Origin: Antiquaquibacter oligotrophicus
Lineage (GTDB): Bacteria; Actinomycetota; Actinomycetes; Actinomycetales; Microbacteriaceae
DNA: 64,000 nt
Direction of reading: 5' to 3'
NCBI RefSeq assembly: GCF_020535405.1
Contig: NZ_CP085036.1
Span: 1,736,001 to 1,800,000 of the forward strand
Made by a program: the position numbers and the translations under genes. Position 1 is the first letter of the stretch; every line of letters starts with the position of its first letter. The notes under the pieces are model-generated. The model was not told where the DNA came from. It did no database searches and saw only the letters and a program-made list of their open reading frames with translations. This document shows positions 13,981 to 60,789 of the stretch, one piece after another.

Positions 13981-14050
13981 GTGCTGCTGGTCGCTTTCCC
14001 GAGGGACGTGCGACCCGGAGGCCGTCTCATCACCATCGATTGAGTACGTA

Positions 14051-23033: not shown

Positions 23034-24041
23034 TCAGGAGCCGGCCCCGTCGGGTGTGATGACAACGAGAGGCGCATCGGCTGGTACTTCGATTTTCGGG
23101 AACCGCGAGCGATAGGCCCCGGATGCCCGCTCCCACCCCGCGGAACCACCCGGCACCACCTGCCCGACGCCCGCCAGCCACACCCCGTCGCGGAGCACCT
23201 CGACGGCGGCGGGATCGCGGAGGTTGCGCCACCACTTTTTGGTCTCGTGCTTGCTCGGCCACACGACGTACTCGTTGTCCAGCGGCGCGTACTGCACGGG
23301 CAGCTCGTGCACTGCTCCCGTGCGGCGCCCCCGCACGCGCAGTCCGATGAGGGTGGGGCCGAGCATCCGGTGTACGCGCGACTCGAGGAGCGTCAGTGTC
23401 GCGCGGCCGGAGGCCGACTCGCCCGCGACGAGAGGAGCGGCGAGTCCGCTCACGAGTCCGAGGAGAGCACCCGCTGCGGCTCCCGTGGCGCTCGCCGTGA
23501 TGATGATCGCGGCTGGCGCCCAACTCTCGTCTGGCGCGGTCGCACCCGCGAAGATGATGACCATGGCGGGTGCCCACGCCGCAGCCGAGATCCCCACCCA
23601 CCGCCACGGGTAGGGGGCTTTCCTGCGTAACACGAAGGATTGTCCCGTACCCAGTACCGCGCCCATGATCGCCCCGAGCAGCAGTGCACCACCGAGGATG
23701 ACCCACCACGGCGGTCCATCTCCCGAACCGCCCGCGAGCTGCGACGGCACGGATGCTGCGGCCCAGCCCACTCCGGCGATCGCGACAGTGACGATGGCCC
23801 ACGCCGCGGCGCTCGCGCCCGGCAGCCAGCGCCGCAGGACAACACCTTGCAGCACCCCCAGGGCGGTTCCTTCGACGAGTCCTCCCGCGACGATGATGAA
23901 CAGTGCGAGCCAGGGTGACGGGACGGTCGCGGCGAGAAGTGCCGCGGTGGCTGCAGCCGTCATGCCGATCGTCTCCGCGAGAGTGCACGCCGCGACCCAC
24001 CTCCCCAGTGGCAGGACGCGGCGTGCGTCCGAACCCGTCAC
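23034..24041 (-). CDS. Membrane protein fused to F420H2/nitroreductase-like domain
   Basis: This 335-residue two-part protein has about six or seven hydrophobic helices at residues 10-210 (for example LFIIVAGGLVEGTALGVLQGVVL). The C-terminal domain at about 215-335 contains IGLRVRGRRTGAVHELPVQYAP and KKWWRNLRDPAAVEVL, typical of the deazaflavin-dependent nitroreductase (Ddn/DUF385) fold. The GTG start at 24041 forms a GTGA overlap with the stop of the PNPOx-like gene, so they are translationally coupled. The fusion suggests membrane-linked F420 or flavin chemistry. No F420 biosynthesis genes are in the window. Confidence 0.68.
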   Translation of the reverse strand: MTGSDARRVLPLGRWVAACTLAETIGMTAAATAALLAATVPSPWLALFIIVAGGLVEGTALGVLQGVVLRRWLPGASAAAWAIVTVAIAGVGWAAASVPSQLAGGSGDGPPWWVILGGALLLGAIMGAVLGTGQSFVLRRKAPYPWRWVGISAAAWAPAMVIIFAGATAPDESWAPAAIIITASATGAAAGALLGLVSGLAAPLVAGESASGRATLTLLESRVHRMLGPTLIGLRVRGRRTGAVHELPVQYAPLDNEYVVWPSKHETKKWWRNLRDPAAVEVLRDGVWLAGVGQVVPGGSAGWERASGAYRSRFPKIEVPADAPLVVITPDGAGS

Positions 24042-24436
24042 CGACGGAAGAGGCGACCTGTCACGCCTGTCGGTCGGATCCGGAGATAGGTGCGCCCCAG
24101 TCCCGGGGCCCAGGCCCACACGGGTTCTGCGCTCGCGGTGCGGATCTCGTCGGCATCTGCCACCACCTCGGCGACACCGGTCACGACGACACTCCACGCG
24201 CCGAGGGAGTTGACGTCGTCGACCTCGAACGCGACGTGGGGGTTGAGGAGGATGTCATCGACCTTGGTGCCGTGTTCCGTGCGGACGAGGATTCCGTCGT
24301 CGTCGGCGAGGAAGTTCACGGGAAAGACGTCGGGATGATTGTCGACGCTCACGGCGAGGCGTCCGAAACTCTTGCTGCGGAGGCGGCTCCACGATTCCTG
24401 CTCGTCGAGCACAGACGTGTGCGTTGGGGAAACCAT
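24038..24436 (-). CDS. Pyridoxamine 5'-phosphate oxidase-family protein
   Basis: This 132-residue split-barrel flavin- or F420-binding protein shows GRLAVSVDNHPDVFPVNFLADDDGILVRT (about 25-53) and HVAFEVDDVNSLGAWSVVVTG (about 67-87), both typical of the PNPOx-like family that includes DosR-regulon members of mycobacteria. It is coupled by a 4-base overlap to the membrane/nitroreductase fusion. A DosR-box-like sequence lies 37-50 bases upstream of its start. Confidence 0.85.
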   Translation of the reverse strand: MVSPTHTSVLDEQESWSRLRSKSFGRLAVSVDNHPDVFPVNFLADDDGILVRTEHGTKVDDILLNPHVAFEVDDVNSLGAWSVVVTGVAEVVADADEIRTASAEPVWAWAPGLGRTYLRIRPTGVTGRLFRR

Positions 24437-24472
24437 GGTGTGCAGTCTTGCGGGGTCGCTCGCGGGTTCGAA

Positions 24473-24486
24473 GGGTCGAAGGTCCC
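24473..24486. promoter_or_regulatory. DosR-box-like site upstream of PNPOx gene
   Basis: GGGTCGAAGGTCCC matches the 14-base core GGGACTWWAGTCCC of the mycobacterial DosR consensus at 11 positions. It is 37-50 bases upstream of the PNPOx start and shares 12 of 14 bases with the site before the sensor kinase gene. Confidence 0.5.
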
Positions 24487-24493
24487 GTCGAGA

Positions 24494-26359
24494 TTAGCCG
24501 CGCGCCATCGCAGTTGGTGTGTCGGTTGCGCGCGCGTCTCGCGCAGCCAGGACTCGACGCCCCGCTCGCAGACTGTTCAGGATCGCGATCACATCGATGA
24601 CTTCCTGAAGGCTCGCCCCGATGATCGCCGGCAGCACTCCGGTTGTGGCCACGAGCATGAGTGCAACACTCAGCCCGATCCCGATTCCGATGCTCTGGTA
24701 GGCGATTCGGATGGTGCGCTGCGCGAGAGCCATGACGTCGGCCGCGCGACCGATGTCCTCAACGAGGATGACGGCGTCGGCCGATTCGCTTGCTGCCGTG
24801 GCGCCTCGAGCGCCCATCGCGATGCCGACATCGGCCGCGGCAAGAACGGGTGCATCGTTGACTCCGTCGCCGACCATCATGACGGGGCGCGGCTCGAGTC
24901 GGCTCACGGCCTCGACCTTTCCCGCCGGGAGCAGGGCAGAGCGCACCTCGTCCACACCCGTCAGCTCGGCGATGCGTTCCGCGGTCTCCTGGGCGTCACC
25001 GGTGAGCATGACGGTGCGGCGAATGCCCAGCCCACGCAACCGTCGCAGGGTGGCGGATGCCTCGGGCCGAACCTCATCGGAGAGCACAATCCTCCCCAGC
25101 AGCCGGCCGTCGCGGGAGACGTAGACCGCGGTCTCGCCCGGCGCGAGCGGAGGGAACGTGTCATCCGCTCCGGGGTCGACGAATGACCGTTTGCCGGCAC
25201 GCACCTCGTGCTCCGCGACCGTTCCCCGCACACCTTCCGCGACAACTTCGGTGACCCCGGCAGCGCCGAGCACCGGCAGTCCTCGTCGGTTGCTCTCCGC
25301 CACAATTGCGGTGGCGAGCACGTGCACGGAGTCTTCCTCGACGGCCGCACCGGCTGCCACCAGATCGTCGTCGGTTCCGTGCACGGCCTCCACACGATCC
25401 ACCTCGGGTGTTCCCCGCGTCAGGGTGCCGGTTTTGTCGAATGCAGCGCTTCGTGCTCGCGCGAGTTGCTCGAGCACGCCGCCGCCCTTCACGATGACGC
25501 CCTCGCTCGCCGACCTGCTCATCCCGGCGATGAACGCAACGGGGGTGGCGATAAGGAGTGGGCACGGTGTGGCGACGACGAGTACCTCCGCGAAGCGGGA
25601 CGGCTCCCCCGAGACGAGCCACGCGATCCCTCCGATCGCGAAGGCGACAAGCGTGAAGGGAGCAGCGACGCGGTCGGCAAGTCGCACGAAGGGCGCCTTG
25701 CTGTCGGCCGCGGATCGAACCAGGTCGACGATGGTTTGATACTGGCTGTCGGCAGCCGTGGCCGCCGCGCGGAGCCGCACGAGGGCTCCGCCGTTGACGA
25801 CCCCGCTCAGTACGGTGTCGCCGCCGACACGCGTGACGGGCAGGCTCTCACCCGTGATGGACGACTCGTCGAACGACGCCCGGTCGCTGAGGATGATGCC
25901 GTCGACGGGCACGACCTCGCCCGGTCGTACCTCGAGTTCATCGCCGACGCTGACCGCGTCGACGGGGATATCGCCTCGAGCAGCGTGAGCCATGACGGGG
26001 GCGCGCTTGAGGAGAGCGCTCAGTTCGCTCCGTGCCCGGTGGGCAGCGTAATCTTCGAGCGCCTCACCACCGGTGAGCATGAGTACAACAACGAGTGCCG
26101 CCCAATAGTCACCGAGGGCCACCGTGCTCGCGATCGCGGCGACCGCGAGGATGTCGATTCCCCAACTGCCGGAGCGCAGCGAGCGCACCATGGCCACGGC
26201 GCTGCGCGCGGCGACGAGTACAGCGAACGCGCTCTCAATCCAGCGCACGACCGGGGATGCCGGGGTGGCGGTGAGCACCAGTGCGGTGAGCCCCACGACA
26301 ACGGTGGCGCTTACCCACGGGTAGCGCAGCGCGAGTGTTCCCACCCGCCGCCAGGTCAT
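24494..26359 (-). CDS. Heavy-metal P1B-type ATPase
   Basis: This 621-residue pump has the TGES actuator loop (FDESSITGESLPV), the transmembrane metal motif TPCPLLIATP, the phosphorylation site FDKTGTLT and the hinge GDGVNDAP. There is no N-terminal CxxC metal-binding domain. The usual Ser-x-His-Pro nucleotide motif reads SVHVLATAI, keeping His but losing Pro. A TPC motif is less common than CPC or SPC, so the metal cannot be assigned. It is translationally coupled (4-base overlap) to the downstream-oriented USP operon that is divergent from a DosS-like kinase. Confidence 0.87.
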   Translation of the reverse strand: MTWRRVGTLALRYPWVSATVVVGLTALVLTATPASPVVRWIESAFAVLVAARSAVAMVRSLRSGSWGIDILAVAAIASTVALGDYWAALVVVLMLTGGEALEDYAAHRARSELSALLKRAPVMAHAARGDIPVDAVSVGDELEVRPGEVVPVDGIILSDRASFDESSITGESLPVTRVGGDTVLSGVVNGGALVRLRAAATAADSQYQTIVDLVRSAADSKAPFVRLADRVAAPFTLVAFAIGGIAWLVSGEPSRFAEVLVVATPCPLLIATPVAFIAGMSRSASEGVIVKGGGVLEQLARARSAAFDKTGTLTRGTPEVDRVEAVHGTDDDLVAAGAAVEEDSVHVLATAIVAESNRRGLPVLGAAGVTEVVAEGVRGTVAEHEVRAGKRSFVDPGADDTFPPLAPGETAVYVSRDGRLLGRIVLSDEVRPEASATLRRLRGLGIRRTVMLTGDAQETAERIAELTGVDEVRSALLPAGKVEAVSRLEPRPVMMVGDGVNDAPVLAAADVGIAMGARGATAASESADAVILVEDIGRAADVMALAQRTIRIAYQSIGIGIGLSVALMLVATTGVLPAIIGASLQEVIDVIAILNSLRAGRRVLAARDARATDTPTAMARG

Positions 26360-27138
26360 GCGCGCGCGATCAGGACGGGCGAGTTGAGGTTCAGCAACAC
26401 CTCGTGGGTGGTCGACCCGAGGTAACCGGCTCTGGCGGTGTCGGCGCGTGTCGCTCCGAGGACGAGCAATCCGGCGGATCGGCTCGCGTCGAGTAGCGCC
26501 TCCGCGGGGCGCCGTCGCGACACGCGGCGGCGAATGACCAGTGCCGGATGGATGTCCGCTGCCAGGGCCGCGGCATCCGCGAGGAGACGTTGCCCTCCGT
26601 CGCCGGGCGCTGCGTTCACGAGCGACAGCTCATTGCCCACGTGGGCTGCCTCCTGGGCCCCTCGCGTCACGGCCACCTCCCACGGTGTTCCTTCGGCAAC
26701 CCCCACAACGACCCCGCGCCGTGCGGTCACGGGTGTGTCGGGGATGACCGCGACAGAACTCGTGGCTGTCGAGGCTACAACCACGCTCCGCGTTCCGAGA
26801 ACCCTTCCCGAGAGGTAGCCGGTCTTGTGGGTTCCCACCACGAGCAGGTCTCCGGGTTCGGCAGACACGGCGAGCTCCCACGCCGTGCTGCCCTGGCGGA
26901 TGCTGGTCGTGATCGGTGCATCGGGGGCACACCGTCGGGCGACCTCGAGTGCGTCCGCGAGGAGGCCGTTCGCGCCGCGCCGGGCATCGTCCGCGTAATC
27001 CTCACCAAGCTGGCCCCATTCGCCGTCGACAACGTGGACGAGTTCGAGGGCTTCATGGTCGCGTGCGGAGCGTTTTGCCGCCCACGTGATGGCTGCTCGA
27101 CTGGGTCCCGAGCCGTCGACGCCGACCCTGATGGTCAT
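26356..27138 (-). CDS. Tandem universal stress protein (UspA) 2
   Basis: The 260-residue protein has two UspA-like domains (about 1-130 and 138-258). The ATP-binding pattern is seen as VVGTHKTGYLSGRVLG (about 100-115) in the first half and LVLGATRADTARAGYLGSTTHEVL in the second. The first half keeps the G-x2-G-x9-G spacing only approximately. It overlaps the neighbouring USP gene and the P-type ATPase gene by 4 bases each, forming one transcript. Tandem USPs are typical DosR-regulon members in mycobacteria. Confidence 0.87.
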   Translation of the reverse strand: MTIRVGVDGSGPSRAAITWAAKRSARDHEALELVHVVDGEWGQLGEDYADDARRGANGLLADALEVARRCAPDAPITTSIRQGSTAWELAVSAEPGDLLVVGTHKTGYLSGRVLGTRSVVVASTATSSVAVIPDTPVTARRGVVVGVAEGTPWEVAVTRGAQEAAHVGNELSLVNAAPGDGGQRLLADAAALAADIHPALVIRRRVSRRRPAEALLDASRSAGLLVLGATRADTARAGYLGSTTHEVLLNLNSPVLIARA

Positions 27139-27986
27139 AGAAGCTCCTCGTCAAGGATCTCGGGAAGAACGGTGATGGGTCCGCCGGGTGCCGGCACGAC
27201 GAGAACGGGTGCCGGCAGGTTGAGGATGACGTCGTGGCTCGTCGAGCCGAGGATGAGACTTCCGAGGGCTCCGCGGCCGTGCGTCCCCACGATGACCAGG
27301 CCGGAGCTGCGGCCACGGTCGACGATGGCCTCGGCGGCCGATCCCGACTCCAGGGCGAGCTCGACGGGCACACCCGGATGGGCACGACGAACTCGATCGG
27401 CGGCATTCTCGGCGACCTCTTTTGTCACGTCGTAGAACTCGGCGGCGACCGCGCGGTCGTGACCGAACGCCTCGGTCCACGAGGTGACGATCGTGAGCGC
27501 TCCACCGCGGTGCGCAGCCTCACGCCCGGCGCGATCGAGTGCGCGGTCTGCCGTCTCGTCGTCCGTCCACCCGACCACCACGTCACTCGGGCCGTCGACC
27601 CACCCGCGCGGCACAACCGCAACGGTGCACTGAGCCCTGCCCGCGATGCGCAGCGCGAGTGTTCCGAGCACCACACCCGATACGGCACCCACCGGTGTCG
27701 ACTCGACGACCAGGAGGTCGGCACGTCGAGACACCGAAAGGAGAACGTCGGCGACCGGTCCGCGCCGCACGCTCACGGTTACCGGGACCTCCGGCACTCT
27801 GGCGCGGGTGACACCGGCGATGCGTTCGAGTGCACGTCGAGCCTCGTCGGGGGCGCCCCGGCGCGGCAACACCGTGAGGATCTCGAGCGTCATCGCCGTC
27901 TCCCGGGCTCGAACGATGGCCCACTCCAGTGCGGAATGCTCGTTGCCGTGCCGTTCGGTGTTCACGGCGACTATGACCTTGTCCAT
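27135..27986 (-). CDS. Tandem universal stress protein (UspA) 1
   Basis: This 283-residue double-domain USP has a first domain (about 1-125) with the degenerate VVESTPVGAVSGVVLG. The second domain (about 138-272) has the full ATP-binding signature IVGTHGRGALGSLILGSTSHDVI. It is first in the minus-strand operon, divergent from the DosS-like sensor. The start is preceded by GGAGGTGGAGG. A DosR-box-like site lies 56-69 bases upstream. Confidence 0.9.
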   Translation of the reverse strand: MDKVIVAVNTERHGNEHSALEWAIVRARETAMTLEILTVLPRRGAPDEARRALERIAGVTRARVPEVPVTVSVRRGPVADVLLSVSRRADLLVVESTPVGAVSGVVLGTLALRIAGRAQCTVAVVPRGWVDGPSDVVVGWTDDETADRALDRAGREAAHRGGALTIVTSWTEAFGHDRAVAAEFYDVTKEVAENAADRVRRAHPGVPVELALESGSAAEAIVDRGRSSGLVIVGTHGRGALGSLILGSTSHDVILNLPAPVLVVPAPGGPITVLPEILDEELL

Positions 27987-28041
27987 CCTCCACCTCCACG
28001 TTCGGTTGTGTCAGACTGGCTCCGTTCGGCTCGGCGCGGCA

Positions 28042-28055
28042 GAGCCGAAGGTCCC
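28042..28055. promoter_or_regulatory. DosR-box-like site between USP operon and dosS-like gene
   Basis: GAGCCGAAGGTCCC matches the DosR core consensus at 10 of 14 positions and shares CGAAGGTCCC with the site at 24473-24486. It lies in the 104-base divergent promoter region, so it could serve the USP operon, the kinase gene, or both. Confidence 0.45.
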
Positions 28056-28090
28056 GCGCCCTGGGGGCGCATCCGCAGGAGGTCGCGATA

Positions 28091-29773
28091 GTGGATGACG
28101 CGGAAGGCCTGACTTTTCCGGACGGCCCTCGAACCGAACTGGATTCGTCGCTCGCACGGCTCGTCCAGTCGGCTCAGGAGGTGCTCGCCACCCAGGGTCG
28201 GCTCCGCAACCTCCTGAAGGCCACACGGTCTGTTGCCGGCGAGATCGAACTTGCGGCCGTGCTCCGCACGATCGTGGAGGCCGCCGTCGATCTTGTCGGT
28301 GCCCGGTACGGCGCCGTCGGTGTCATCGGTCCCGACGGGATGCTGGAGCAATTCATCCACGTCGGGATGCCCGACGACCTCGTGGCCCACATCGGTCACC
28401 TTCCCCAAGGTCACGGGCTCCTCGGCGCCCTGATCGAAGAACAGCAACCCATCCGGCTGCCCGATATCGCGGCAGACCCACGCTCGAGCGGCTTCCCGGC
28501 CGGGCATCCGCCCATGACGACCTTTCTCGGTGTCCCCATTCGCGTACGAGGCGAGACGTACGGAAACCTCTACCTCGCCGAGCACGAGGGTGGTCCGTTC
28601 AGTGCAGAGGACGAGGAGTTGCTCGTGGCGCTCGCGGCAACGGCCGGTGCCGCCATCGATCACGCCCGATTGTTCGACGAGAGTAGACGGCGCGAGCGGT
28701 GGACCGCGGCATCGGCGGAAGTGACCGCGGCCCTTCTGTCGGATGATTCGGAGCAATCCCTCGCGGTGCTCGCCGATCGGGTGGCCCTGCTTGCCGACGC
28801 GGACACGGTGTGTGTTGTCCTTCCGGCCGCGGAGGGGCGATTGCGGGTCGACGTCGTCCGCGGCGACGCTGCTGACACGCTCGTCGGCCTAGTGTTCGCC
28901 GCCGACGGCACACTCGCCGGTCGCGCGCAGGAGAGCGGTCACCCCCACCTCACCGATGTCGGCGACCCGCTGGATCCGCTGGCCCTCGGCCCGACGATGG
29001 CGCTGCCGATTGCGATTCCGGGCGAGCGTGGCGGGGTGCTCACGGTCTCTCGCGCCGCGGGTCGACCGCGGTTCGCGACGAGTGATCTCACGCTCGCCGC
29101 GGATTTTGCCGCGCAAGCGAGTGTGGGGCTTCGGCTTGCGAGCGCGCAGGCCGACCGCCGCACGATCGCGATGCTCGAGGACCGTTCGCGCATCGCGCGC
29201 GATCTCCACGACAACGTCATTCAGCGCCTCTTTGCTGCCGGACTTTCGCTACAGGCGCTCGCCGGGAGTGTCGACGGCGCGACTCGCGCGCGACTCGCCG
29301 AGCAAGTGGATGCCCTCGATGCCGCTATTGCCGACATCCGCACGGCGATCTTCACCATGACCTCGAGCAACGCCGACGAGCGTCCGTCGCTGCGCCACCG
29401 CGTCATCGACCTCATGGGGGAGTTGGGGGAGGCCTTTCCCGAATCACCGCGTCTGACGTTCTCCGGTGCGGTTGATCTTCTGGTCACGCAGGACCTCGCA
29501 GACGATATGGTCGCCGTTCTGCGGGAAGCGCTGAGCAATGCGGCGCGCCACGCAGAGGCGAACGACGTGTGGGTGCGTATCTCTGCCCTCGATGGCGTCG
29601 CGAGTGTTGTGGTCGAGGACGACGGAGTTGGAATACCCGCGACCTTGCAACGTTCCAGCGGTACGGCGAACCTCGATGCTCGTGCGCGTTCGCGCGGCGG
29701 AGAGTTCACGCTGGGCACGCGGGAGCCGCGCGGTAGCGTGGTGCGATGGGCAGTCCCCCTGGAGGGCGAATGA
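28091..29773 (+). CDS. DosS/DevS-like GAF-domain sensor histidine kinase
   Basis: The 560-residue kinase has GAF-A (about 55-190), GAF-B (about 205-350), a HisKA_3 dimerisation region with the phospho-acceptor His373 in RIARDLHDNVIQRLF, and a HATPase domain (about 440-560; VEDDGVGIP). GAF-A contains GHPPMTTFLGVPIRVRGE. Its His139 and Tyr161 align, with identical 22-residue spacing, with the heme ligand His149 and distal Tyr171 of M. tuberculosis DosS. It is therefore likely a heme-based O2/NO/CO or redox sensor. The GTG start has AGGAGG upstream. The stop overlaps the response regulator start. Confidence 0.85.
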   Translation: MDDAEGLTFPDGPRTELDSSLARLVQSAQEVLATQGRLRNLLKATRSVAGEIELAAVLRTIVEAAVDLVGARYGAVGVIGPDGMLEQFIHVGMPDDLVAHIGHLPQGHGLLGALIEEQQPIRLPDIAADPRSSGFPAGHPPMTTFLGVPIRVRGETYGNLYLAEHEGGPFSAEDEELLVALAATAGAAIDHARLFDESRRRERWTAASAEVTAALLSDDSEQSLAVLADRVALLADADTVCVVLPAAEGRLRVDVVRGDAADTLVGLVFAADGTLAGRAQESGHPHLTDVGDPLDPLALGPTMALPIAIPGERGGVLTVSRAAGRPRFATSDLTLAADFAAQASVGLRLASAQADRRTIAMLEDRSRIARDLHDNVIQRLFAAGLSLQALAGSVDGATRARLAEQVDALDAAIADIRTAIFTMTSSNADERPSLRHRVIDLMGELGEAFPESPRLTFSGAVDLLVTQDLADDMVAVLREALSNAARHAEANDVWVRISALDGVASVVVEDDGVGIPATLQRSSGTANLDARARSRGGEFTLGTREPRGSVVRWAVPLEGE

Positions 29774-30405
29774 TTCGTGTGTTCCTCGTCGACGATCACG
29801 AGATCGTGCGTCGCGGTGTCGCCGACCTCATCAACGCAGGGAACGACCTCGAGGTGGTTGGCGAGGCCTCGACCGTGCGCGAGGCGAAGGGGCGGATCGC
29901 GGCGACAAGGCCCGACGTCGCCGTTCTCGATGTGCAGCTCCCCGACGGCAACGGGGTCGACCTCTGCCGAGACGTCCGTTCGGCAGACCCGACCGTGCAG
30001 TGCCTCATGCTCACAGCCTTTGCCGACGACGAAGCGAGCCGCACCGCCGTCCTTGCCGGTGCTGCTGGCTACGTTTTGAAGGACATCCGAGGTCAGGGTC
30101 TTCTCGATGGCATCAGGCGTGTCGCTCGAGGCGAACGTCTCGTGACGGCGGCGACCACCAAACGTGTTGTCGAGCACGCGACCGAGAAGGCGGCGGCGAC
30201 AACGGTCGATCTCAGTTTGCGCGAACAGCAGGTGCTCCGGCTCATCGCCGATGGCCTCACCAACCGGCAGATCGGCGAGCGGCTGGAGTTGGCGGAGAAA
30301 ACCGTCAAGAACTACGTGTCGGGGCTCCTCGCCAAGCTGGGGATGGAGCGCCGCACCCAGGCCGCCGTCTACGGTGCACGGCAGCGCAGCGACGACGCAC
30401 GGTAA
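29770..30405 (+). CDS. DosR/DevR-like NarL-family response regulator
   Basis: The 211-residue regulator has a receiver domain (1-120) with acidic pocket Asp8-Asp9, phospho-acceptor Asp54 (VLDVQLPDGNG) and Lys104 region YVLKDIRG. The LuxR-type HTH (about 145-205) contains LAEKTVKNYVSGLLAKLGME, almost identical to the DosR recognition region. The ATG at 29770 overlaps the kinase stop by 4 bases and has GGAGGGCG in front. It should bind the nearby box-like sites and activate the USP, ATPase and PNPOx genes under low oxygen, by analogy. Confidence 0.87.
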   Translation: MIRVFLVDDHEIVRRGVADLINAGNDLEVVGEASTVREAKGRIAATRPDVAVLDVQLPDGNGVDLCRDVRSADPTVQCLMLTAFADDEASRTAVLAGAAGYVLKDIRGQGLLDGIRRVARGERLVTAATTKRVVEHATEKAAATTVDLSLREQQVLRLIADGLTNRQIGERLELAEKTVKNYVSGLLAKLGMERRTQAAVYGARQRSDDAR

Positions 30406-30434: not shown

Positions 30435-31388
30435 ATGACGAGCGAATCGGCGTGGGCCCGCACCCCCATTCAGCCGCAATCCGTTGACGCACCGCTCTCC
30501 CGTTCGGCGGTCTTCCTCACCCTCACGCTGAGTGGCCACCCCGACGCGGCGGCACGGGCGCGTTCCGTGCTCGGCGATCTCGGCGGACTCGTGCGCGCGG
30601 TGGGATTCCGTGATCTCGGGGCGCACTTGTCGTGCGTCGCAGCGATCGGCTCGGAGGTGTGGGATGCCGTCACCGGCCTGCCTCGGCCGGTGCAGCTTCA
30701 TCCGTTCCCCGCCGTCGTTGGGCCAGCCCACACGGCACCATCGACCCCCGGCGACCTCTTTTTTCACATCCGGGCCGAGCGCGACGACTTCTGTTTCGAA
30801 CTCGAGCGCCTCATCCTCGACAAACTCGGTAATGCCGTACAGGTCGCCGACGAGACGGTGGGTTTTCGCTACTTCGACTCGCGCGACCTTCTCGGTTTCG
30901 TCGACGGTACCGAAAACCCCACGGGCTCGGGCATGCGCGAGTGGGCGCTCGTCGCCGACGGCGACCCGGATCACGCGGGCGGAAGCTACGTTGTCGTGCA
31001 GAAATACCTCCACGACCTGGCCGCGTGGAACGCGCTCAGTACCGAGACGCAGGAGAAGATCATCGGGCGCACGAAGGCCGACAACGTGGAGCTCGACGAC
31101 CTCCCGCGCAAGTCGCACAAGGACCTCGCGACGATCGTCGATGACGATGGCGTCGAGCACGACATCCTGCGCGACAACATGCCGTTCGGCAGGCCGGGTG
31201 CCGGCGAGTTCGGCACCTACTTCATCGGCTACTCGAAGGACGTGTGGGTGACGGAGCGGATGATCAGCGCGATGTTCCTCGGTGACCCTCCCGGTTCGTA
31301 CGATCGCATCCTCGATGTCTCGCACGCCGTCACGGGTGCGACTTTTTTCGCACCGTCGAACGACGTCCTGGAGTCCTTCGGCGACTAG
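30435..31388 (+). CDS. DyP-type heme peroxidase
   Basis: This is a 317-residue cytosolic B-type dye-decolorising peroxidase without a signal peptide. The catalytic Asp lies in LGFVDGTENPTG (about residues 153-164), and DNMPFGRPGAGEFGTYFIGYSKD (about 244-266) supplies the conserved distal Arg. These enzymes oxidise phenolics or dyes with H2O2 and are often packed in encapsulins, but no encapsulin gene is adjacent. It is monocistronic and convergent with the MFS gene, overlapping it by 4 bases. Confidence 0.92.
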   Translation: MTSESAWARTPIQPQSVDAPLSRSAVFLTLTLSGHPDAAARARSVLGDLGGLVRAVGFRDLGAHLSCVAAIGSEVWDAVTGLPRPVQLHPFPAVVGPAHTAPSTPGDLFFHIRAERDDFCFELERLILDKLGNAVQVADETVGFRYFDSRDLLGFVDGTENPTGSGMREWALVADGDPDHAGGSYVVVQKYLHDLAAWNALSTETQEKIIGRTKADNVELDDLPRKSHKDLATIVDDDGVEHDILRDNMPFGRPGAGEFGTYFIGYSKDVWVTERMISAMFLGDPPGSYDRILDVSHAVTGATFFAPSNDVLESFGD

Positions 31389-59372: not shown

Positions 59373-60789
59373 CGATGGGCCTCTCTTCCGGTCGTCTGAA
59401 CAACCTCGGGTGCTGGCTCGCGGCAAGCGCCGCGGCCAGAGTCACGGTGCCGATGCGACCGAAAAACATGGTCGCGGCTAGGATGTACTGCGCTGAATCC
59501 GTCGTCGACGCTGTGAACCCGGTCGTGAGACCACACGTAGCGAACGCGCTGATCACGTCGAAGAGCACATAGTCGAGGGTCGAGTCGGTGAGCAGCAGGA
59601 TGAGGATGCACGATGCCGCAACGGTCGTCGCACCCCACAGCACAACACTCACCGCGAGTCGTAGCACGTCGCCCGGAATGCGGCGGTCGTACGCCTCCAT
59701 GTCGCTGTGTCCGCGAGCTTCGGCGAAAGCGGCGAGGAAGAGTATCGCGAGGGTTGTGACCTTGATGCCGCCTGCCGTGGAGGCAGACCCTCCGCCGATG
59801 AACATGAGCATGTCGGTGACGAGAAGGCTTGCGGAGTCGAGTTGAGCGATGTCGACGGTGGAGAAACCGCCGGATCTGGCCATCGATGACAGGAAGAAGC
59901 TCTGGAGCACCCGTTGGCCCGGGTCCATCGGCCCAAACGTTCTCGGGTTGTTGTACTCCAGTACGAAGTAGGCGAAGGCGCCGAGCACGAGCAGCAACGC
60001 GAAGGTAAGGATGGTGATCTTGACGTGGAGGGACCAACGCCGGGGGTGGCGCAGGTTTTTGGTCAGAACGTAGATCACCGGGAATCCGATCGCGCCGAGA
60101 ACCACGCCGAGCATCAGAACGGTCAGAAACCACGGGTCATCGGCGTAGGGCGTGAGACCGTCCGATGTCGGCAGGAAGCCCGTATTCGTGAACGCCATCG
60201 CCGACAGGTACACGGACTGCCACGCCGCGTCGAGCACGGGGACACCCTGGATGAGCATCCGAGGGAACAGGAGGAGCGCGACGGCTAGCTCGATGATGAG
60301 CGCGCTCACGGCGACCGTGAGGAGGAGGCTGCCGGTCTCGCCGAGTCGCACCGCCTGGCCCTCAGAGATCGGCCCCTTGTGAATCCGGAGGGGGTTCGCG
60401 TCCCCCGCGGCGAGCAACTTCTGTCGCAGGCCCAAGCGGCGGCTGATCACGAGACCGAGGATGCTCGCGAGCGTGAGAACACCGATGCCACCGATCTCCA
60501 CGCCAATGAAGACGAGAACGTGGCCGAAGGGGGACCAGTATGTCGCCATGTCGACCGTCGAGAGTCCCGTGACGCAAATAACGGACACGGCCGTGAAGAG
60601 AGCGTCAACGAGGGGAGCGGGGCGCCCCGTGCTCGTCGCGATCGGAAGTGAGAAGAGGAGAGTGAAGATGAGCACGAAGCTCGTGAAGATTGTGATGGCG
60701 AAGCGTGCAGGGGTCGCGGCGGCGAACGAATCGATGCCGTCGCGAAGGCGCGCATAGATGCTCGTCCGCATCGCGGGCTCAACTCGCAT
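59365..60789 (-). CDS. Trk/Ktr potassium transporter membrane subunit TrkH
   Basis: The 474-residue protein has four M1-P-M2 repeats. Selectivity-filter segments include VICVTGLSTVD (first, about 73-83), MAFTNTGFLP, SMARSGGFSTVDI and FATCGLTTGFT. It moves K+ (with H+ or Na+) inward. Start 60789 has GAAGGG upstream; a longer frame to 61032 is antisense to the ArsR gene. It forms an operon with trkA (8-base overlap). Confidence 0.9.
   Translation of the reverse strand: MRVEPAMRTSIYARLRDGIDSFAAATPARFAITIFTSFVLIFTLLFSLPIATSTGRPAPLVDALFTAVSVICVTGLSTVDMATYWSPFGHVLVFIGVEIGGIGVLTLASILGLVISRRLGLRQKLLAAGDANPLRIHKGPISEGQAVRLGETGSLLLTVAVSALIIELAVALLLFPRMLIQGVPVLDAAWQSVYLSAMAFTNTGFLPTSDGLTPYADDPWFLTVLMLGVVLGAIGFPVIYVLTKNLRHPRRWSLHVKITILTFALLLVLGAFAYFVLEYNNPRTFGPMDPGQRVLQSFFLSSMARSGGFSTVDIAQLDSASLLVTDMLMFIGGGSASTAGGIKVTTLAILFLAAFAEARGHSDMEAYDRRIPGDVLRLAVSVVLWGATTVAASCILILLLTDSTLDYVLFDVISAFATCGLTTGFTASTTDSAQYILAATMFFGRIGTVTLAAALAASQHPRLFRRPEERPIVG

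Follow-up and report, generated by a model that had tools for sequence, protein, structure and literature searches.

A DosS/DosT-DosR-type two-component system and its predicted low-oxygen regulon in Antiquaquibacter oligotrophicus

Gene content of the locus and the sensor-regulator pair

The window analysed here is a stretch of 64,000 nucleotides, bases 1736001-1800000 of the 2.9-Mb single-contig genome of Antiquaquibacter oligotrophicus (Microbacteriaceae), and it contains a two-component system that resembles DosS/DosT-DosR of Mycobacterium tuberculosis. The kinase gene (28091-29773, plus strand) encodes a DosS/DosT-like sensor of GAF-GAF-HisKA_3-HATPase architecture, as identified by Pfam, PDB match, and homolog alignment, and it overlaps by ATGA (by eye) with the gene of a DosR/DevR-like response regulator of the NarL/FixJ type (29770-30405, plus strand). 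Divergent from this pair, on the minus strand, are two genes for tandem-Usp universal stress proteins (USPs), usp-a (27135-27986) and usp-b (26356-27138), each with two stretches matching PF00582. These are followed by the gene for a P1B-type heavy-metal ATPase of the Cd/Zn type (24494-26359, minus strand; TIGR01512 486 bits, cut-off 313.5; TIGR01525 also above its cut-off), and each junction in the order usp-a, usp-b, P1B ATPase is a 4-base overlap. A 57-base gap, which holds the first of two palindromic boxes described below, separates the ATPase gene from that of a PNPOx-fold flavin/F420-binding protein (24038-24436, minus strand; PF12900, 1.4e-25). The stop codon of the latter shares GTGA (by eye) with the GTG start of a gene encoding a membrane protein with a C-terminal deazaflavin/F420-type (Ddn-like) domain (23034-24041, minus strand; scanned as 23034-24086). 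The whole genome has five Usp-domain matches, and four of them sit in this locus.

The initial annotation of this DNA had listed two tandem USPs, a P1B ATPase, and a PNPOx-family protein beside the two-component system, and the Pfam and TIGR profiles confirmed them all. Its label of a nitroreductase-like fusion for the membrane protein proved weak: the protein just passes PF04075 (23 bits, cut-off 22) but fails TIGR00026 (31 bits, cut-off 46.35). The likeness of these functional classes to those of the DosR regulon holds for the USPs but not for the ATPase, as CtpF, the known pump of the DosR regulon, is P2-type. The hallmarks of the mycobacterial DosR/DevR regulon are hspX, fdxA, tgs1, and Acg-type nitroreductases; no Acg model matched the Ddn-like protein in the profile scan, and the hallmark genes themselves were not searched for.

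The best solved relatives of the kinase GAF-A domain in the PDB are the heme domains of DosT and DosS, with identities of 57% and 51%, respectively, over 112 aligned residues. As had been proposed at the outset, the kinase has a DosS-type residue pair with the DosS spacing: His139 and Tyr161 align with His149 and Tyr171 of DosS, the proximal His and the distal Tyr of GAF-A, which in DosS serve as the heme ligand and the reader of the bound ligand (PMC4082495). We counted residue conservation in 107 distinct homologs, which were collected by similarity to this kinase. His139 is conserved in 105, Tyr161 in 106, and Gly77 in 104 of them; the 106 homologs that cover position 77 have 104 Gly, 2 Ala, and no Glu. 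The phospho-His of HisKA_3, His373, lies outside the part covered by 4 of the 107 homologs and is present in each of the other 103. In one homolog (L075) the His, Tyr, and Gly are jointly replaced by Leu, Phe, and Ala, and the boxes of its locus are retained. The closest named near-full-length relatives of the kinase include those of Leifsonia sp. SCN 70-46 (62% identity) and Salinibacterium sp. ACE_ACT13 (61%), and a relative from an unclassified actinobacterial bin (61%) is also among the closest near-full-length matches.

Gly77 corresponds to Gly85 of DosT, the position of Glu87 and its restricted channel in DosS, and thus represents the DosT state. At the positions of DosS Glu87, Asp90, and Thr169 the kinase has Gly, Gly, and Asn, the same as DosT, and at four other positions where DosS and DosT differ (PMC4082495) it agrees with DosS once (Val98) and with neither protein three times. 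The Glu87/Gly85 pair has been proposed as the difference between DosS and DosT, although the biochemistry is disputed (PMC4082495). Because the residue at DosS position 87 is the DosT-like Gly, stable O2 binding by GAF-A would be indicated, to the extent that this disputed residue has the meaning proposed for it (PMC4082495), and we predict that the kinase is a DosT-like O2 sensor. Unlike M. tuberculosis with its DosS/DosT pair, this genome has a single detected DosS-like kinase, DosT-like at position 87.

The response regulator has NarL/FixJ architecture and a recognition helix of the DevR type. Its best PDB match is DevR (3c3w, 7.4e-64), and the stretch LAEKTVKNYVSxLLAKLGMERRTQAAV in the recognition-helix region departs from DevR at x alone, so the DosR-type helix assigned in the initial annotation is nearly identical to that of DevR. 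Searches with the NCBIfam equivalogs MadS and MadR gave 84.7 bits (cut-off 500) and 168.3 bits (cut-off 300), both under the curated cut-offs.

Boxes, promoter geometry, and conservation in relatives

Two DosR/OsdR-type boxes were identified in the window by sequence match and by matrices: box 1 (GGGTCGAAGGTCCC / GGGACCTTCGACCC; 24473-24486), upstream of the PNPOx gene, and box 2 (GAGCCGAAGGTCCC / GGGACCTTCGGCTC; 28042-28055), between usp-a and the kinase gene. Box 1 is the sole perfect GGGNCNWWNGTCCC in the genome. The two sites had been noticed as matches to the M. tuberculosis DosR core, and the counts hold, with 11 of 14 positions for box 1 and 10 of 14 (by inspection) for box 2, but they are not above chance alone: with up to 3 mismatches, that core gave 2 matches in the window versus 3.64 expected, which is not significant, and we dropped it as an only criterion. 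The OsdR consensus of Streptomyces coelicolor is AGGGCCGATCGGCCCT, with the site AGGGACCTTCGGCCCC predicted at narG2 and at the usp gene SCO0167 (PMC5069765), and both window boxes share 13 of 14 positions with this predicted site when it is read in reverse. A matrix built from the 25 predicted S. coelicolor sites in Table 1 of that paper (PMC5069765) ranked the two boxes 7th and 8th among 63,985 window positions, and a second matrix, for which 90 boxes were taken from relatives and none from this genome, ranked boxes 1 and 2 first and fourth; the top-ranked window positions of the two matrices differ. It is this comparison with OsdR sites and with relatives, not the M. tuberculosis core, that makes the window boxes credible. 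As judged from its sequence, the box resembles that of Streptomyces OsdR more closely than that of M. tuberculosis, with the centre reading ACTWWAGT here and TCGAAG/CCGAAG in M. tuberculosis. Two other window positions, 14003 and 59921, outscored box 2 with the relatives' matrix and were rejected for want of a downstream -10-like element. The box at 59921 falls within a gene resembling a Trk-type transporter, and the box-like palindrome at 14003-14016 is intergenic, between two divergent dehydrogenase-like genes (both by eye).

Both boxes are followed, 23 nt downstream, by a -10-like element on the minus strand: AAGACT (24444-24449), facing the PNPOx gene, and CAGTCT (28013-28018), facing usp-a. 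We aligned 61 gene-facing sequences 3' of strict boxes at usp, PNPOx, and cydA genes, own genome excluded, and found A at position 24, T at 28, and G at 29 and 30 after the box; AAGACTG and CAGTCTG in the window stand exactly at this conserved offset. The pattern was replicated in 37 further promoters, taken from named records with a kinase sequence not in the first set, where A24 and T28 occur jointly in 17 of 37 versus 37 of 166 control sides, which include some true promoters (p=0.004). In the whole genome, the single perfect box with a -10 element is 24444-24486, the PNPOx promoter; usp-a is among the one-mismatch matches, and the box core CGAAGGTCCC has 7 copies versus 1 for the control. 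We infer that the box centre lies about 42 bp before the start site, which would be the geometry of an activator overlapping the -35 region.

A kinase homolog (E ≤ 1e-60) was found in 66 of the 199 Microbacteriaceae genomes searched, own included. For the first footprinting set, we took from each of 40 Microbacteriaceae genomes one stretch of at most 20 kb surrounding a near-full-length kinase homolog, and compared a strict pattern (GGGNCN4GTCCC, either strand, within -300 to +90 of a gene) with a control pattern. In 40/40 stretches the kinase is followed by a regulator homolog, and 27/40 have a divergent usp gene whose start is no more than 400 bp from the kinase. The strict box lies upstream of 17/40 kinase genes (control 1/40), 31/59 USP genes (1/59), and 12/30 PNPOx genes (1/30), compared to 0/42 regulator genes (1/42), 0/7 P1B homologs (0/7), and 31/437 other genes (4/437). 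The second set consisted of named records, partly of the same genomes as the first, with the weak matches L202-L206 excluded; here the strict box was found at 23/80 kinase, 30/91 USP, 10/46 PNPOx, 7/18 P1B, and 4/66 regulator genes, and the control pattern at two regulator genes and at none of the other four classes. Thus, boxes are enriched in relatives upstream of the same genes as in the window, and the lack of such enrichment, which the initial annotation had named as a refuting outcome, did not occur. In named relatives, P1B homologs adjoin USP, regulator, and PNPOx genes and boxes, and in two stretches (L127, from Leifsonia, and L128) the P1B ATPase gene likewise follows a usp gene whose promoter carries a box.

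The cytochrome bd operon and other boxed genes

Outside the window, a box lies 110 bp upstream of the single cydA gene of the genome (1811479). Next in this operon, the only cytochrome bd operon of the genome, come cydB and a gene for a fused ABC exporter of the cydDC kind. We examined 104 cydA upstream regions, own included, from copies found in 153 genomes. The strict box is present at 10/13 copies within the fetched kinase stretches and at 4/41 copies elsewhere in kinase-positive genomes, where elsewhere means outside the fetched 20 kb and some kinase loci were not among the fetched stretches. It is present at 1/49 copies in kinase-negative genomes, and the control pattern at 0/104 overall. 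A looser kinase search (E ≤ 1e-30) of the 49 kinase-negative genomes revealed a clear relative in the boxed genome G137 alone, in two pieces (6.6e-57 and 1.3e-52); a second genome (G176) gave a 27%-identical match, and its cydA is unboxed. With G137 moved to the kinase-positive group, cydA is boxed in 15/55 versus 0/48 copies (p=3e-5, a rough value, as the copies share ancestry), and each of the 15 strictly boxed copies belongs to a genome that has a kinase relative. Three congeners (G082, G145, and G197) have neither a DosS-like kinase at E ≤ 1e-15 nor a cydA box, and the system is therefore patchy within the genus. Divergent from the own cydA is a gene of the BlaI/penicillinase-repressor family (L109:4912-5463; genome 1810912-1811463), and TTCTAC/GTAGAA repeats adjoin the cydA box, a possible second control of cytochrome bd.

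At genome position ~275,115 (L122:2514-2620), a flavodoxin-like gene is preceded by two abutting box-like sequences, which deviate from the strict pattern by one base and by two bases, and the second has A24, T28, G29, and G30 downstream (by reading); this gene probably belongs to the regulon. A weaker candidate box precedes a gene for a short-chain dehydrogenase (~2,040,954), and intergenic sites are also found before a 323-amino-acid gene without a Pfam match (2086815) and before a 302-amino-acid gene (1450728). Most sites in the fetched candidate stretches of the genome fall inside called genes, and two convergent genes end on either side of the site at 1877288, which is part of an inverted repeat resembling a terminator stem; these sites were rejected. 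The phosphoketolase gene of this genome (728702-729796) has no box, with a best score of 3.4 in 12 kb.

To survey the genes beside boxes in relatives, we aligned 72 of 77 box-flanking open reading frames (ORFs) that do not match window genes by tblastn, leaving out five long or duplicate ORFs. Among the families listed (the best 25 of 42) are at least nine cydA, five Usp, four phosphoketolase, three BON, three BlaI-like, two pyruvate formate-lyase, and one acetate kinase. One box may flank two ORFs; therefore, not every box-flanking ORF is a target. Boxes of relatives (L038-L077) also flank genes for alcohol dehydrogenase (ADH), transhydrogenase/alanine-dehydrogenase-like proteins, and BON-domain proteins.

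Proposed regulon and its relation to known systems

We consider it likely that this DosS/DosT-DosR-type system runs a small low-oxygen regulon, consisting of the usp-usp-P1B operon, the PNPOx and Ddn-like genes, the cyd operon, and probably the flavodoxin gene. In the proposed mechanism, His139 of GAF-A would hold heme and Tyr161 would read the ligand, such that the kinase senses low O2 and probably also nitric oxide (NO) and carbon monoxide (CO). Upon loss of O2, the kinase would phosphorylate the regulator, a dimer of which would bind the palindrome GGGNCNWWNGNCCC, with its centre about 42 bp ahead of the start of transcription, overlapping the -35 region, and recruit RNA polymerase to a -10 element of the form nAnnnTG. 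The genes switched on would be usp-usp-P1B ATPase, PNPOx-Ddn-like, the cydAB-cydDC operon outside the window, and probably flavodoxin. Sequence comparison and the footprinting in relatives thus give good support to the compact DosS/DosR-like regulon suggested by the initial annotation; the predicted regulon also takes in cytochrome bd, outside the window, and probably flavodoxin.

Several observations weigh against this interpretation. One-mismatch boxes are not enriched genome-wide (113 versus 132 control matches), nor are boxes combined with a -10 element at up to one mismatch (7 versus 6). Box 2 deviates from the strict pattern by one base, as does the box of the own cydA, whose -10 element has T28 without A24; toward the kinase gene the element is also incomplete, with A24 present and T28 absent. 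In the first footprinting set, the kinase is without a strict box in 23/40 relatives and P1B homologs are boxed in 0/7, and gene starts and the class of other genes were derived from tblastn ends and an ORF caller of our own making. The heme-ligand His is lost in two kinase homologs (L075 and L077). Finally, the strict box is missing from 37/41 cydA copies that kinase-positive genomes carry outside the fetched stretches, among them that of G026, which is only ~2 kb from its kinase; since most distant copies and this near one are unboxed, the link between cydA and the kinase is lineage-dependent.

One alternative, which we regard as unlikely, is that kinase and regulator are indeed DosSR homologs and drive the same boxes, but that GAF-A binds another ligand or acts via redox or protein contacts. 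It fits L075, whose locus retains its boxes without the His/Tyr pair, and L077, which has lost the His, and it agrees with position 79 of the kinase, which in homologs is mostly Ile, Val, or Leu where DosS and DosT have His or Arg. The near-complete conservation of His139, Tyr161, and Gly77 argues against this alternative, as do the low-oxygen enzymes among the box-flanking genes of relatives. Far less probable is that the boxes serve some other regulator, such as the BlaI-like repressor encoded next to cydA or a different LuxR-type protein, and that their proximity to the DosSR pair is incidental. The divergent BlaI-family gene and the TTCTAC/GTAGAA repeats by the cydA box would fit this, but the window promoters are without TTCTAC repeats (by eye), the boxes match the predicted OsdR site at 13/14 positions (PMC5069765), the kinase itself is strictly boxed in 17/40 relatives, and all 15 boxed cydA copies are accompanied by a kinase relative. 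That the boxes are chance GC-rich palindromes, as the DosR-core match alone and the genome-wide one-mismatch counts would allow, is scarcely credible and largely refuted by the footprinting enrichment over the control pattern in both sets, besides the fixed -10 spacing and the single perfect box with a -10 element in the genome, at 24444-24486.

The preferred reading, a DosR-type low-oxygen regulon, has precedents. Like DosS/DosT-DosR (DevRS) of M. tuberculosis, the system has a GAF-GAF-HisKA_3 kinase with the His/Tyr heme residues, a near-identical DevR recognition helix, and USP genes; mycobacterial DosR motifs are treated in PMC3388012. A DosR-like regulon outside mycobacteria, as the initial annotation had described it, is likely here but is not new: such regulation is established for Streptomyces, where OsdK/OsdR of S. 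coelicolor was described in 2016 (SCO0203/SCO0204; PMC5069765), which is likewise a DevR/DosT-like pair amid USP genes with a palindromic box and predicted sites at USP and PNPOx (SCO0214) promoters. The Streptomyces OsdR regulon differs in containing genes for nitrate reductase, pyruvate phosphate dikinase, and development (PMC5069765), and the main text of that paper contains neither 'cyd' nor 'cytochrome', whereas here the cyd and usp-P1B operons carry boxes. The own cyd operon has the cydA, cydB, and fused cydDC-like exporter genes of other actinobacterial cytochrome bd operons but differs from them in its DosR-type box and neighbouring BlaI-family gene. Mycobacterial cydAB has been placed under SenX3/RegX3 and CRP (PMC7719681), cyd and dos were induced side by side in a CO study (PMC8125079), and the main text of a paper on DosRS of Mycobacterium abscessus is without 'cyd' (PMC10034137). 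Among the open-licence PMC papers listed, none dealt, by title and abstract start, with a DosR-type regulon in Microbacteriaceae or with one containing cyd there. The link of the bd oxidase to a DosR-type system looks like the new part.

What emerges is a small predicted DosR-type regulon in an environmental lineage, with a pair of window boxes, a third box before the cyd operon, and probably a further one before flavodoxin, and a predicted direct link from a DosT-like O2 sensor to cytochrome bd, for which the mycobacterial review names other regulators (PMC7719681). The gene content fits low-oxygen respiration and stress survival, and the label 'dormancy' is not supported by this content alone. 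This bears on the ancestral role of DosR before its fame as a dormancy switch. Tentatively, and with somewhat less than even confidence, we propose that the Microbacteriaceae system is a direct low-oxygen energy switch, acting on cytochrome bd and, in relatives, on phosphoketolase/acetate kinase, pyruvate formate-lyase, and ADH, along with USPs and a metal pump. On this view, the respiratory switch would be the older function, from which mycobacterial dormancy would have branched off as a specialisation, and gains and losses of cydA boxes would accompany those of the kinase.

Because it was not found at that place in the 40 fetched or 75 named stretches of relatives, we left out of the system a gene for a DyP-type peroxidase (30435-31388), which comes next after the regulator gene.

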